DNA of 64,000 nucleotides from Synechococcales cyanobacterium CNB (GTDB lineage: Bacteria; Planctomycetota; Phycisphaerae; Phycisphaerales; UBA1924), in NCBI GenBank assembly GCA_030263455.1, contig SZOZ01000008.1:1-64000 (forward strand). Reading direction: 5' to 3'. A program made the translations under genes and the position numbers. How positions within the stretch are numbered: the first letter of the stretch is position 1; every line of letters starts with the position of its first letter. Below, one piece after another: positions 23,710-54,204 of the stretch. The notes under the pieces are model-generated. The model was not told the origin of the DNA. It ran no database searches and worked only from the letters and a program-made list of their open reading frames with translations.

Positions 23710-24576
23710 CTACTCCTCCTCGGGTTCGAGTTCCCTCATGCGGTTCTGCATCTGGGCCTTGAGCCGGGCGAGGATGGAGGAGTGCATCTGGCTGACGCGG
23801 GACTCGGAGAGGTCGAGAGTTGCGCCGATCTCCTTCATGGTGAGTCCTTCGTAGTAGTAGAGCGTGACGATGAGTTGCTCCGCCCGCGAGAGGCCCTTGG
23901 TGACGATGTCCTTGAGGTCGCGTCGCTGGATCTCTCGGAAGGGGTTGACCTGCGTGTCGTCGCGGATGACGTCGATCTCGCGGACGTCGCGGGTGCCGTC
24001 GGTGGTGAATGCCTTTCGGTTGAGGCTGAAGGTGCCGACCGCGCTGCCATCGCGCTGGTACTTCTCGAACTCCTCGGCGTCGAGTCCGAGGAATGCGGCG
24101 ACGTCCTCGTCGGAGGCTGGGCGGCCGGTGCGCATTTCGAGCTGCTGTCGAGCCTGCTCGATCTTGCCGGTGCGATGGCGTACGAGTCGGGGCACCCAGT
24201 CCATGTTTCGGAGTTCGTCGAGGATGGCGCCGCGGATTCGCGGGGCGCAGTAGGTCTCGAACTTGACCTTTCGTTCGAGGTCGAAGGCGTCGATGGCGTC
24301 CATGAGGCCGAAGAGTCCGGCGGACATGAGGTCTTCGAGGTCGACTTCGTCGGGGAGTCGGGTGTAGATTCGCTCGGCGTTGTAGCGCACGAGGGGGAGA
24401 TACTTCTCCATGAGGTAGTTGCGGAGGGAATCGGAGCGTGTGGCCTGGTACTCGCGCCAGAGTTCCTCGCCCTTCATCGCGTCGTACGGTGACGGCGCGT
24501 TCGAGGCTTCGGCGTGGCGTGCGCTCCTGCGAGCGGCGATGCGACTTCCAGCGAGCGATGCGTGTGCAGCGGCCAT
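23710..24576 (-). CDS. fliA: FliA/WhiG-type RNA polymerase sigma factor (sigma-28)
   Basis: 288 residues. Region 2 is seen in KYLPLVRYNAERI and DLEDLMSAGLFGLMDAIDAF (about 65-95), followed by region 3 and a region 4 helix-turn-helix with LTMKEIGATLDLSESRVSQMH (about 240-260), the end typical of FliA. The protein directs transcription of late flagellar and motility genes. The ATG at 24576 is fixed by AAGGAGAGG upstream; a longer in-frame form is unlikely. It sits after flhF-flhG, as in Pseudomonas and Bacillus. No flgM anti-sigma gene is in the window. A sigma-70-like promoter lies about 86 bases upstream. Confidence 0.93.
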   Translation of the reverse strand: MAAAHASLAGSRIAARRSARHAEASNAPSPYDAMKGEELWREYQATRSDSLRNYLMEKYLPLVRYNAERIYTRLPDEVDLEDLMSAGLFGLMDAIDAFDLERKVKFETYCAPRIRGAILDELRNMDWVPRLVRHRTGKIEQARQQLEMRTGRPASDEDVAAFLGLDAEEFEKYQRDGSAVGTFSLNRKAFTTDGTRDVREIDVIRDDTQVNPFREIQRRDLKDIVTKGLSRAEQLIVTLYYYEGLTMKEIGATLDLSESRVSQMHSSILARLKAQMQNRMRELEPEEE

Positions 24577-24661
24577 CGGTCCTCTCCTTGACCCTCGGCT
24601 TGCCGGCCGGCGTTCGTGCCGAACGGCGTGTCGTGGTCGATCCATGACCCGACAGGCGGGG

Positions 24662-34098: not shown

Positions 34099-34332
34099 GG
34101 GTCGCGGCTCCTGCCCCGCTCCTTGGCGCGAGGCGCCGGCATCCTGCCGGTTTGGGACGGCCACCAGCGGCCGCGCTCCAACGCGACCGGCCCGGCGACC
34201 GCCGGGCGGGTCGGTCATCGGTCAGAGGACGGCATGGCACGCCACTTTTGCCGATCGCGCAGCAATCCTCGCACGACAGCGGCATGGGGTGCGTGTCTGT
34301 ACGGCTTGTGATCGGGAGACCTGTTTGAGCGG

Positions 34333-34857
34333 TCAGTCTGCCGGGAAGCCCTTGCACTTGGGAATGAGGACGCGCTCGACGCGGGGTGTGCCGTCCTGCT
34401 GTGTGCCGAAGACCTCGTTGACGTAGGCGGTGAGTTGGCGTGTGAGGGTTTCCTGGCCCGGCTCGCGGAGTTGGTTGTGCTGGGCCTTGCGGAAGATAAG
34501 GGAGACGCCTGCGGCGATCTCGGCCTTGCGTGTGTCCATGATCTTCTGAACGGCGGGGCGGTTCTTCTCGCGGACCTTGAGGTAGATGGCGGCGTCCCAG
34601 ACCCAGGCGCGGTTGGTGGACATGTTCTGGAACTTCTCCTCGATGAGGAGGAGTTCGACGGCGGCCTCGCGACCGGCCTCTTCGAGGCCTTCGAGCTCCA
34701 TCGCGCTGGATCGTGCGGTGCCGCTGCCCGTGAAGGCGAGGAATCCGAAAACGGCGACGGCCTCGACCACCATGATCGCGGAGACGATCAGGATGAGTTT
34801 GAGCTGGGGCTTTTTCTTCTGCTCCGGGGCTTCCGCCGCGGCTTCCTGCTCGGCCAT
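34333..34857 (-). CDS. fliL: FliL-family flagellar basal body protein
   Basis: 174 residues. A charged N-terminus, one transmembrane helix (about 20-43) and a periplasmic domain with EEKFQNMSTNRAWVWDAAIYLKV (two short segments, about 70-95) and a conserved C-terminal tail. FliL sits at the stator and supports torque. Sequence similarity to classical FliL is modest, but size, topology and place after motB agree. The start ATG at 34857 follows GGAGCGCGCACG. Confidence 0.83.
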   Translation of the reverse strand: MAEQEAAAEAPEQKKKPQLKLILIVSAIMVVEAVAVFGFLAFTGSGTARSSAMELEGLEEAGREAAVELLLIEEKFQNMSTNRAWVWDAAIYLKVREKNRPAVQKIMDTRKAEIAAGVSLIFRKAQHNQLREPGQETLTRQLTAYVNEVFGTQQDGTPRVERVLIPKCKGFPAD

Positions 34858-44323: not shown

Positions 44324-45364
44324 TCACACGACCATCTCCGCCTCGCCGCCGCGGCCCTGGATGAGCACCTCGCCGGCCTCTTCGAGCCGTCGGACCACGT
44401 CGACGATGCGCTGCTGGGCGGCCTCGACGTCGCTGACGCGCACGGGCCCCATGAACTCCATGTCCTCCTTGATGAGGGCGGCGGCGCGTTGCGACATGTT
44501 GGTGAAGATTTTTTCCTGGAGTTCCGGGCTTGCGGTCTTGAGGGCGAGGGCGAGTTCGTCGTTGTCCACTTCCTTGAGGACGGCCTGGATGCCCTTGTCG
44601 TTGACGAGGAGGATGTCCTCGAAGACGAACATGAGGCGGCGAATCTGCTCGACGAGGTCGGGGTCCTCGGCTTCGAGGCCCTCCATGATGGACTTCTCGG
44701 TCGCGCGGTCGGCGAGGTTGAGCACCTCGGCGACGGTGTCGACGCCGCCGGCCTTCTCCATCGACTGCATGAGCATGTTGGCCAGTCGGCTTTCGAGGCC
44801 GCGCTCGACTTCCTTGATGACTTCCGGGTTGGTCTGCTCCATGTTGGCGATGCGTTTGACGACTTCGAGCTGCTTCTGGAGGGGGAGGCCGGCGAGGATT
44901 TCGGCGGCCTTGTGGTGCGGGAGGTGGCAGAGGATGAGCGCGATGGTCTGCGGGTGCTCGTCCTGGATGAAGGTGAGAAGGTTCTCGCTCTCGGCGCGCT
45001 GGAGGAAGGAGAAGGGAGTCTTCTGGACCTGCGTCTGTATCTGCTGCACCATCCGATCCGCGTCCTTGGGGTCGAGGGACTTGGAGAGGACGGCGCGTGC
45101 GTAATCGACGTTGCCTTCGCGGGCGTACTGGCTGGCGATCGTGAGGCCATAGAACTCCTCAACGACGCCGGCGATGAGTTCGGGCGGTGCGCGGCCGAGG
45201 CTGGCGAGTTCGCGCATGACCTCCTCGACGGCTTCGGGCGGCATCTTCGCGAGGACGACGCCGGCCTTCTCGGGGCCGACGGCGAGGAGGAGCACGGCCG
45301 CCTTGGTGAGGCCTTCGAGTTCGTGGGGCGAACTCGGGAGTTTGTCGTGCGGCTTGCGCGGCAT
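44324..45364 (-). CDS. fliG: Flagellar motor switch protein FliG
   Basis: 346 residues, normal length. The three-domain FliG is seen: N-terminal domain with LTKAAVLLLAVGPEKAG (about 18-34), middle domain with the FliM-binding EHPQT motif (about 125-130) and C-terminal torque domain with charged residues in VFEDILLVNDKGIQAVL (about 240-256). The EHPQT motif is intact although no fliM gene is in this locus. It follows fliF by six bases. Confidence 0.96.
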   Translation of the reverse strand: MPRKPHDKLPSSPHELEGLTKAAVLLLAVGPEKAGVVLAKMPPEAVEEVMRELASLGRAPPELIAGVVEEFYGLTIASQYAREGNVDYARAVLSKSLDPKDADRMVQQIQTQVQKTPFSFLQRAESENLLTFIQDEHPQTIALILCHLPHHKAAEILAGLPLQKQLEVVKRIANMEQTNPEVIKEVERGLESRLANMLMQSMEKAGGVDTVAEVLNLADRATEKSIMEGLEAEDPDLVEQIRRLMFVFEDILLVNDKGIQAVLKEVDNDELALALKTASPELQEKIFTNMSQRAAALIKEDMEFMGPVRVSDVEAAQQRIVDVVRRLEEAGEVLIQGRGGEAEMVV

Positions 45365-51564: not shown

Positions 51565-54024
51565 CTACGGCCCGACGGAGGACCGGCGATCGGTCGCCAT
51601 GCGGTCCAGTTCCATGGTCGAGTTCAGCCAGCGTTCCCAGTCCTGTCGCGACATGGGGAGGTAGGGGTCGTCCCATGCCTCGTCGGGGAGGCTTTCGAAG
51701 AATCGGCGAGCTCGCTCGTTGCTGGTGCGCGCGAGTTCCACTTCTCCCTTTGCCATGTGGGCGTTGACGATCTGCACGAGCGCGACGAGCGAGGCGGGGT
51801 CGCGGGGGTAGCGGTCGCGCGCGGCGGTGTAGTGGCGGATCGCGCTCTCGAACTCGCCGAGTTCCATGGCGCAATCGCCGAGATAGAGGTAGGCGTTGCG
51901 GAGTTGGACCTCGTCCACGATCGTGCGGCGGCCCGGCTCGACGGCCTCCAGCCCCGCGCGGGCCTCCTCGAAAAGGGCGAGGGCGCGGAAGAGGTAGTCC
52001 TCGCGCAGGCGGGCGAGTTCGCGGGCGCGGACGCTGGGCATGGCCTCGCGGGCGGTTTCCTCGGCGATCTCGCCGGCGAGCAGGCGGTAGGAGTCCGCGA
52101 GGCGGTAACGGACGGCGTTCGTGGCGGGATCGTCGGGGAATCGGCGGGCGGCTTCTTCCAGGCGTTCGACGGCGTCCCGGTATCGTCGCGCGTTGTAGAG
52201 GTATGACCCGAGCTCGATGAGCGCGTCGCGGTAGGCCGCGGACTCGGAGTCGCCCAGTTCGCCGTGGACAACGGCGACGAGGAGTTCCTCGGCCTCTGCG
52301 TCGTTGTCCGGGTCGGCGTCGCCGAGGAGGGATTGCGCGAGGGGGACATAGGCGGCGTCCGCCCAGGGGCCGACGCCCTTGGCCTCCCTCTTGTCATTGA
52401 TGAGCGAGCGGAACTCATCGGCGGCGGCGGCGATCTCTCCCATCGCCTGGAAGCAGCGTGCGAGCCTGAAGCGGGCCTCTGCCTGTCGCGGGTCGTCGGG
52501 GAAGCCGGAGGCGTACTCGCGGAATCGGAGGATCGCCCGCTCACGGTCGCCGCCGCGGTCGAAGGAATCGGCGGCGAGCCAGAGGGAGCGTGCGTAGGCG
52601 TCGTTGTCTGCGAGGACGACGCGGTTCATGTGCTCGGCGTAGTAGCCGCCGGCCTTGAGGAGGTGCTGCTGGGCCTGGCGGCGTGTCGCCAAGTCCGCGC
52701 TGGCGCCGGCGGCGGCTTCGATCTCGTCTGCGGCTCGACGGTGCGCCTCGGCCAGGGCGAGCAGCACGTCCGCGGTGGCTTCGTCGATGGTGTAGAGCGA
52801 CTCGGCGAGGTGGGCGTAGCGCATCGCGCCGGCGGTGTCGCCGCCGAAGTAGCGCTCGCCGTAGCGGGCGAGGAGGCTCTGGGTTACGCGAGATCGGGCG
52901 GGATCGCCGTCGGGCGCGCGGCGCACGGCTTCGACGAGCCGCTCGTAGGTTTCGAGGGCGGCGGCGTCCTCGCCGAGCGTGCAGCGCGTCTCGGCGAGTC
53001 CGAGCAGAGCCGGCGCGAGAAGCGGCGTGAGTTCCCACTCTCCGGCGAGAGTGGCGTAGCGGTCTCTTGCGGAGGCGGTGTCGCCGCGCGCGGCCTCGGC
53101 CTCGGCGGTCAGCAGTTCCGCGCGACCACGGCGCAGGTCCAGCCCGCTGAGCATCGACGACGCCCGCTCGAACTGCTTGACGGCTTCGTCGAGCTCGCCC
53201 AGGCGGAAATGCCCCACGCCGAGGAGATAGTAGAGTTCGCCGAGTTCGGGCGAGTCGGCGACGCGGACCCGCAGGCGCACGATCGCCTGGACGAGCCGCG
53301 TGACGGCCTCCTCCAGGCTCCCCTGCGCGATGCGGACTTCCGCCTGCCGCGCGAGACACCACAACTGGTCCTCGATCGGGAGGTCCGGCTCGGCGAGCAG
53401 CCGCGACACGAGTTGTACCGCGCGATCGTGGTCCGGGGGGTCGCGTTCGAGCGATCGCTCGACAACGCGCCGGATCACCCGCCGGCGAAGATCGGACTGA
53501 TGCTCGGACAACGCTTCGGCGCGGCGGAGGGCCTCGTCCGGAGCGTCGAGGCTCAGATACGTCTCGGCAAGGGCGTAGACGTCGCCCGGTTCGAGGGCCG
53601 CGCCGTAGCGCTCGGCTTCGAGGTACGCCGCGGCGATGTTGCGGTTGTTCTGCTCGACGTCCGCGCCGAGGGCCTTCTGTGCCCCGTGGAGGGCGCGAGC
53701 CATGAGGAGGTGATAGCGCGCGTGGGCGGCGGCACTGACCTGCTCATCGCCGAGGTGGGGGTAGACCTCGCGGTTCAGGAGGGTAACAGCTTCGGCGTGC
53801 CGCTCGTGGGCGATCAGGGTCTCGGCATCGGTCAAGGGTCCGCCGAGTTGCGGGCCGGGTGCCCGGAGGACCGCGGTCACGATCCCGCCGGCGAGCAGGA
53901 GCAGGGCGACGACAAGGAGCCAGACCTGCCACGAGCCTCGGAGTGCGTCACGAAGCCGCTCGGTTCCTGAACGCTCGGGGGTAACTTGATCCTGCTCCAC
54001 CCGGTCCTCCGGCACGAGAGCCAC
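51565..54024 (-). CDS. Membrane-anchored TPR-repeat protein
   Basis: 819 residues from the GTG at 54024, chosen because AAGGAG lies seven bases upstream. A charged cytoplasmic N-terminus (about 1-30), one transmembrane helix with SWQVWLLVVALLLLAGGIV (about 33-51), and then about 15 helical hairpins of the TPR type to the end (motifs such as GELDEAVKQFERA and ARRYRDAVERLEEAARRFPDD). The repeat domain should lie in the periplasm. No enzyme motif. It heads the minus-strand unit leading to the FlgN-like and kinase genes, 25 bases before the former, so it may be a lineage-specific flagellar or envelope scaffold. Confidence 0.8.
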   Translation of the reverse strand: MALVPEDRVEQDQVTPERSGTERLRDALRGSWQVWLLVVALLLLAGGIVTAVLRAPGPQLGGPLTDAETLIAHERHAEAVTLLNREVYPHLGDEQVSAAAHARYHLLMARALHGAQKALGADVEQNNRNIAAAYLEAERYGAALEPGDVYALAETYLSLDAPDEALRRAEALSEHQSDLRRRVIRRVVERSLERDPPDHDRAVQLVSRLLAEPDLPIEDQLWCLARQAEVRIAQGSLEEAVTRLVQAIVRLRVRVADSPELGELYYLLGVGHFRLGELDEAVKQFERASSMLSGLDLRRGRAELLTAEAEAARGDTASARDRYATLAGEWELTPLLAPALLGLAETRCTLGEDAAALETYERLVEAVRRAPDGDPARSRVTQSLLARYGERYFGGDTAGAMRYAHLAESLYTIDEATADVLLALAEAHRRAADEIEAAAGASADLATRRQAQQHLLKAGGYYAEHMNRVVLADNDAYARSLWLAADSFDRGGDRERAILRFREYASGFPDDPRQAEARFRLARCFQAMGEIAAAADEFRSLINDKREAKGVGPWADAAYVPLAQSLLGDADPDNDAEAEELLVAVVHGELGDSESAAYRDALIELGSYLYNARRYRDAVERLEEAARRFPDDPATNAVRYRLADSYRLLAGEIAEETAREAMPSVRARELARLREDYLFRALALFEEARAGLEAVEPGRRTIVDEVQLRNAYLYLGDCAMELGEFESAIRHYTAARDRYPRDPASLVALVQIVNAHMAKGEVELARTSNERARRFFESLPDEAWDDPYLPMSRQDWERWLNSTMELDRMATDRRSSVGP

Positions 54025-54052
54025 AGGCCGACTCCTTCGGCCTGTCTTCCCT

Positions 54053-54137
54053 GAGACGGGGCCTGGAAGGCCCCGCCCCGCGGAGACTGGGCCTGGAAAG
54101 CCCGGCCCCACGGGGAGACCCCGCCCCGTGACGGGAT
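54053..54137. repeat. Tandem imperfect palindromic repeats of about 30 bases
   Basis: Three units starting GAGAC at 54053, 54083 and 54115. The first holds the hairpin GGGGCCT-GGA-AGGCCCC, the second GGGCCT-GGA-AAGCCC with one mismatch, and the third only a partial copy. They fill the 180-base gap upstream of the TPR gene. They could be remnants of a dispersed palindromic element or a transcript-end structure; no T-tract follows. Confidence 0.6.
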
Positions 54138-54204
54138 AGCCCGATCGCGCATGTATCGGGCCTTGGAACGCGCAAACTTGACCTGTTCTCAACCTACAAA
54201 GGGA

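Follow-up and report, generated by a model that had tools for sequence, protein, structure and literature searches.

Probable relocation of fliM out of the flagellar superoperon in a large planctomycete lineage

The window analysed here comprises the first 64 kb of the 213-kb contig C8 of a planctomycete genome (G000) that amounts to 3.2 Mb in 17 contigs and is 98.7% complete. It carries a flagellar superoperon that had been proposed in a preliminary description of the sequence and that proved to be real according to Pfam support for most of its core genes: profile matches were obtained for FliF, FliG, FliI, FliP, FliQ, FliR, FlhB, FlhA, MotA, FlgE and FliO, as well as for an FlhF-like GTPase, an FlhG-like ATPase and the FliA-type sigma factor (Table 1). 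FliH, FliJ, motE, FliK, FlgD, flg_new, flbD and MotB are putative assignments of the preliminary description. The identity of fliL rests on its position and on homologues in relatives, the profile support being weak, with no match in Pfam and an NCBIfam match below the cut-off (E 2.4e-5). The further expectation that fliM is gone from its usual place held true, since fliL and fliN are adjacent on the minus strand and the 234 bp between them are devoid of FliM coding. Likewise, the FliG protein retains the EHPQT motif and FliN has the normal length of 135 residues, with matches to PF01052 and, above the cut-off, to TIGR02480.

Table 1. Features of the flagellar superoperon and of the loci connected with it. 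Positions refer to the window unless a contig is given.
Feature	Position	Strand	Remarks
fliA-type sigma factor gene, end of superoperon	23710..24645	-	sigma-70 regions 2, 3 and 4
fliN, 135 aa	33691..34098	-	PF01052 E 3.8e-25 (longer frame); TIGR02480 108.8 bits, above cut-off
fliL-fliN interval without fliM	34099..34332	-	234 bp, FliM-like coding absent
Putative internal control element in front of fliN, AAAAG-N23-CCGA	34218..34249	-	only occurrence within the window
fliL	34333..34857	-	weak NCBIfam FliL match; homologous frame precedes fliN at 25 of 29 loci of relatives
fliG, partner of FliM	44324..45364	-	three FliG domains; EHPQT present
Second site of the fliM-type element, TCAAG-N18-CGATA	54154..54181	-	start region of an 875-aa open frame (51565-54192); also in G001 of the same genus
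Orphan fliM, 337 aa	C8:81927-82940	+	PF02154 and SpoA; 47.6 kb from the gap, about 18 kb past the window end
Third SpoA gene, 112 aa, SpoA only	C2:70176-70514	-	behind putative acpP and fabF (names from sequence)

The preliminary description had proposed that this interval be examined for remnants of fliM in related genomes. A tblastn comparison of 60 FliM proteins with 26 fliL-fliN gaps gave 1050 rows, all of them weak and none convincing; the best one (E 0.001, 26% over 58 aa) was located in the gap of a relative, and the gap of G000 was absent from the best 12 rows. An upstream, in-frame extension of fliN to position 34218 was rejected as probably non-coding because single-base indels were present in the alignment with two genomes of the same genus. 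The 234-bp gap yielded no Rfam match at E values up to 1 and no RNA fold better than those of shuffled sequences (z -0.51), and a strict sigma-54-like pattern was detected neither in the gap nor upstream of fliM. The motif AAAG-N23-CCGA was present in eight of the 26 gaps, three of the eight belonging to one genus, compared with a maximum of three in 200 mononucleotide shuffles, and might tentatively be regarded as a control element in front of fliN that is weaker than the element upstream of fliM.

A search of the complete genome with the PF02154 and SpoA profiles, as the preliminary description had proposed, revealed one PF02154 gene (E 4.5e-66) with a SpoA domain in the same reading frame. 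The middle domain is full length (positions 1-192 of 192, 221.5 bits versus a cut-off of 27), the C-terminal PF01052 domain scores 56.2 bits (cut-off 23.8) and the protein passes the TIGR01397 equivalog model with 298.7 bits (cut-off 219.6). Of the two options originally offered, a switch supplied by a fliM gene elsewhere and a switch built without a canonical FliM, the former is thereby borne out, whereas the latter is refuted for G000 by the intact two-domain FliM that contig C8 encodes beyond the end of the window. This is the outcome for which the preliminary description had foreseen that a relocation would be left. The protein contains the N-terminal EIDALL motif, which is the CheY-binding motif of FliM. 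The GGxG motif of FliM binds FliG and reads GGTS in G000, such that its last glycine is absent; the two domains and the equivalog model nevertheless place the protein in FliM. The absence of this glycine was observed in 25 of the 28 readable orphan FliM proteins (30 in total), in contrast to none of the 12 readable proteins (of 19) encoded by fliM genes linked to fliN and none of six readable outgroup proteins (of seven).

The orphan gene is flanked by a divergent DsbD-like gene at a distance of 143 bp and, 295 bp downstream, by nusA-infB-DUF503-rbfA on the same strand, according to heuristic open reading frame calls by script. No terminator-like sites were found between fliM and nusA. The usual gene ahead of nusA is rimP, and fliM stands in this position in G000 (L005:5928-12593, contig C8, outside the window). 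A replacement of rimP by fliM was considered and rejected: RimP_N was missing from G000 and from 42 of 44 sampled planctomycete genomes, and no connection between the two genes is claimed because orphan and linked genomes lack it alike.

The arrangement on both sides of the move recurs in relatives. Among 29 fliN loci of relatives, 25 show fliL followed by fliN without fliM; for the remaining four, the sequence examined yielded no match to FliL. A dsbD gene lies beside fliM in 26 of 29, 17 of 20 and 70 of 80 loci, in sets that partly share genomes, the last set being the best 80 of 588 confirmed candidates, which lean to near relatives; the remaining ten of these 80 had no dsbD match. Most of the nearest named records are titled as Phycisphaerales, Phycisphaeraceae or Planctomycetota metagenome-assembled genomes (MAGs), and those of the 80 that bear the names Acidobacteriota, Vicinamibacteraceae or Leptolyngbya were taken for misnamed MAGs. 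In the same best 80 of 588, nusA follows fliM in 53 loci; of the other 27, ten have less than 2 kb of downstream sequence and 17 have at least 2 kb but no nusA match. The nusA neighbour is common, but the dsbD-nusA address is not universal. With a panel of 14 flagellar proteins, no match was detected near fliM in 20 loci of the order, and one of the best 80 of 588 loci (L203) had a flagellar neighbourhood, consisting of flgD and flgE.

The presence of fliM outside the superoperon extends beyond the order. Matches to PF02154 were obtained in 70 of 148 sampled genomes of the phylum, 66 of them above the cut-off. From the 59 FliM-positive genomes outside the order 40 regions were examined, 19 being left out that had mostly weak matches but included the well-scoring G111 and G176, and 20 further regions were taken from inside the order. 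In 20 of the 40 outside regions (L089-L108), several of which are cut by contig ends, fliM is accompanied by neither fliN nor fliL of the operon. Flagellar-type neighbours are present in two of them, L090 (FliY-like gene) and L092 (divergent fliG). A distance of more than 800 kb separates fliM from fliN in the single-contig genomes G171, G165, G095 and G197. In 18 outside regions (L109-L112 and L115-L128), fliN closely follows fliM, in an order that resembles fliL-fliM-fliN/fliY of the Rossellomorea, Pseudomonas and Escherichia coli records. An intermediate case is G118, in which fliM follows flhA inside the flagellar cluster, and G152, with fliM at a contig end, was counted neither as orphan nor as linked. 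These data indicate that the displacement of fliM is an old relocation common to much of the order and beyond. Among the titles listed from the open-licence literature, none dealt with a relocation of fliM in planctomycetes, which is not proof that the subject is unpublished.

The genome under study also contains a third SpoA gene in addition to fliM and fliN. Among 61 genomes, G000 included, three SpoA matches were counted in 51, two in four, one in one and none in five. In a phylum sample of 41 genomes, all 21 with an orphan fliM had at least three SpoA genes, and the other 20 comprised 18 with two, G118 with three and G100 with a marginal third (E 3e-4). Elsewhere, the third protein occurs in long forms of 285-349 aa, and a SpoA gene lies directly 3' of fliM in G149, G083, G127, G062 and G118. 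FliY proteins are characterised by a CheC/CheX-like domain together with a SpoA domain. When 13 proteins of this third type were compared with NCBIfam, those of L307, L090, L092, L093 and L100 matched the FliY model NF006272 over nearly its full length, although far below the cut-off, and the remaining ones, L310 aside, matched FliY models in a region that barely exceeds the SpoA part, if at all; a CheX match of 18.6 bits, below the cut-off, was seen in L307 only. The long forms thus appear only partly FliY-like, and the extra SpoA protein may be a part of the C-ring. As a separate observation, the SpoA protein of L310 (L310:4895-5920, contig C55 of G149) passes the cut-off for SctQ of type III secretion (112.3 versus 100.8 bits); FliM, FliN and a FliY-like protein are encoded in this genome as well.

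The orphan fliM is preceded by a rigid promoter-like element with two boxes, TTCAAG-N17-CCGATA. Its core TCAA-N19-CGAT is present in 51 of the 80 named loci (best 80 of 588), whereas each of the other spacings between 10 and 28 gives at most two loci, and it is absent from the other strand and from the control regions upstream of nusA (0 of 53), dsbD (0 of 68), rbfA (0 of 42) and infB (0 of 44), for which the starts were set by homology. The longer form TCAAG-N18-CGATA occurs in 40 of 81 loci, comprising G000 and the best 80 of 588. As one set of related loci served both to find this dyad and to count it, the occurrences are not independent of one another. In a further sample of the order, it was present in ten of 20 regions. 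Outside the order the exact dyad was absent from 19 orphan and 15 other regions, after one of 20 orphan and five of 20 other regions had been dropped since the FliM match started too far in; one genome of the same class scored well with a matrix. The element would be the promoter of the orphan fliM.

Genome-wide, the exact pattern and its reversed control gave 7 and 0 sites in G000, 6 and 1 in G001, 3 and 2 in G024, 9 and 2 in G025, and 6 and 3 in G016; with one mismatch allowed, the numbers were 13 and 3 in G000 and 9 and 7 in G016. Because the reversed controls yield a modest specificity, many sites outside fliM may be due to chance. Sites are nevertheless located ahead of homologous genes in different genera of the family, namely in three genera each for fliM, a parA-like gene and a fourth gene, and in two genera for a putative TolB-like gene. 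A lysine-rich, putatively histone-like frame follows the element in G000, G001, G024 and G025 (L326, L334, L340 and L341). The names fabF, acpP, TolB-like and histone-like are readings of the sequence only.

Promoters of sigma-28 (FliA) consist of TAAA, about 15 bases and GCCGATAA, and are present before flagellin genes. The CCGATA box of the fliM element resembles the -10 box of sigma-28. An identity of the two was considered but found no support, as the spacing of the fliM element is about 2 bases longer and the upstream regions of flagellin genes score low: the best score in 20 such regions was 3.4, compared with at least 17.9 for the sites used to build the matrix. G000 has three genes with flagellin domains in a row (G000:C2:339534-344936), and the fliM-type element is absent upstream of the two that were read. 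In Chlamydia, sigma-28 is reported to bind hctB and tsp (PMC12282069); by analogy, and as a lead only, the histone-like frames behind the element recall the sigma-28-dependent hctB gene of that organism.

The relocation of fliM, combined with an ordinary FliG/FliM/FliN switch, very probably explains the fliL-fliN gap, our confidence being tempered slightly by the limited generality of the nusA neighbour. In the ancestor of a large planctomycete lineage, fliM would have moved out of the flagellar superoperon and become a stand-alone gene, which in G000 resides at a distance of 48 kb from fliN, flanked by the divergent dsbD and by nusA-infB-DUF503-rbfA. The switch would remain of the ordinary type, with FliM supplied from another locus. 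By this account, FliM would be made from the orphan locus and assemble with FliG and FliN, and the move would have been inherited vertically.

A switch without a canonical FliM, in which FliN or another SpoA protein does the work of FliM, might be suspected from the absence of fliM from the superoperon and from the third SpoA gene in G000, and two of the 61 genomes indeed have FliN-type genes but no FliM match, namely G012 (94% complete) and G028 (91% complete), possibly owing to assembly gaps or to a true loss of FliM. Against this stand the intact FliM on the same contig and the detection of FliM in 54 of the 61 genomes, G000 included, the five genomes without any SpoA match being also without a FliM match; we therefore regard such a switch as extremely unlikely for G000. 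The probability of a misassembly or local deletion restricted to G000 is practically negligible: its assembly in 17 contigs invites the suspicion, but the explanation is refuted because both junctions recur in relatives at the frequencies given above (fliL-fliN in 25 of 29 loci, dsbD-fliM in 70 of the best 80 of 588), and the four single-contig genomes also separate fliM widely from fliN.

Loss of the original fliM and arrival of a foreign gene at the dsbD-nusA locus would account for the similarity of orphan FliM proteins to FliM of Bacillota (33-35%), which is about equal to their similarity to linked FliM of planctomycetes (about 32%). FliG, however, shows the same split, with orphan genomes apart from linked ones and nearer to Bacillota. 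In trees of both proteins, calculated by a quick method with several long branches and few outgroups, the orphan genomes cluster separately from the linked ones, and G118, whose fliM is in its flagellar cluster, is nested among the orphans; in the FliG tree, the orphan genomes G175 and G107 share an open fork with Bacillota. Since the two trees broadly agree, we favour a move of the resident fliM and consider its replacement by a foreign gene very unlikely.

A more far-reaching proposal places fliM outside the flagellar regulon, in a small conserved regulon that is defined by TTCAAG-N17-CCGATA and, in this family, also includes the parA-like, TolB-like and histone-like genes. The supply of FliM would then be timed by this regulon, the cell cycle rather than the flagellar hierarchy would gate C-ring assembly and swarmer formation, and the C-ring itself would be altered by the degenerate GGxG loop and the extra SpoA protein. 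We consider this proposal unlikely, the more so as the control in G016 was poor (9 and 7 sites).

The relocation of fliM to an orphan locus removes the false lead of a FliM-less motor in G000. It also shows that, throughout an order, the flagellar superoperon can do without one of the core switch genes, which has a conserved upstream element of its own, with FliN and FliG staying inside. Because the C-ring requires its subunits in a constant proportion, a separately controlled fliM would offer a test of whether the supply of FliM limits the number or the timing of motors. Together, the extra SpoA protein and the altered GGxG loop would represent another C-ring variant for comparison with that of Campylobacter.

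The switch of G000 shares with the canonical one, as represented by the Pseudomonas, E. coli and Rossellomorea records with fliL-fliM-fliN or fliL-fliM-fliY, the middle and SpoA domains of FliM, EIDALL, FliN and the EHPQT motif of FliG, and its fliL and fliN genes likewise remain in the same cluster. It differs in that fliM lies outside the cluster with an upstream element of its own, GGxG lacks the last glycine and a third SpoA gene is present. A lone annotated fliM is found on a plasmid of Caballeronia sp. SBC2 (L237:19983-20978), with no flagellar gene among the features listed within 20 kb. In Campylobacter jejuni, the C-ring contains FliM, FliY and FliN, with fliY following fliM and fliN located elsewhere (PMC6946799). 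Compared with that description, G000 also has two proteins of the FliN/FliY type besides FliM and switch genes that are not all together, and the third SpoA gene directly after fliM in five planctomycete genomes parallels fliY; in contrast, here fliN was kept in the operon and fliM left, and the third gene of G000 is a bare SpoA frame of 112 aa. For Rhodopirellula baltica, it is reported that most essential pathways lack an organisation in operons (PMC2754498). Gene scattering is thus known in the phylum, but, unlike in that species, the superoperon described here is mostly intact and one core gene is displaced.
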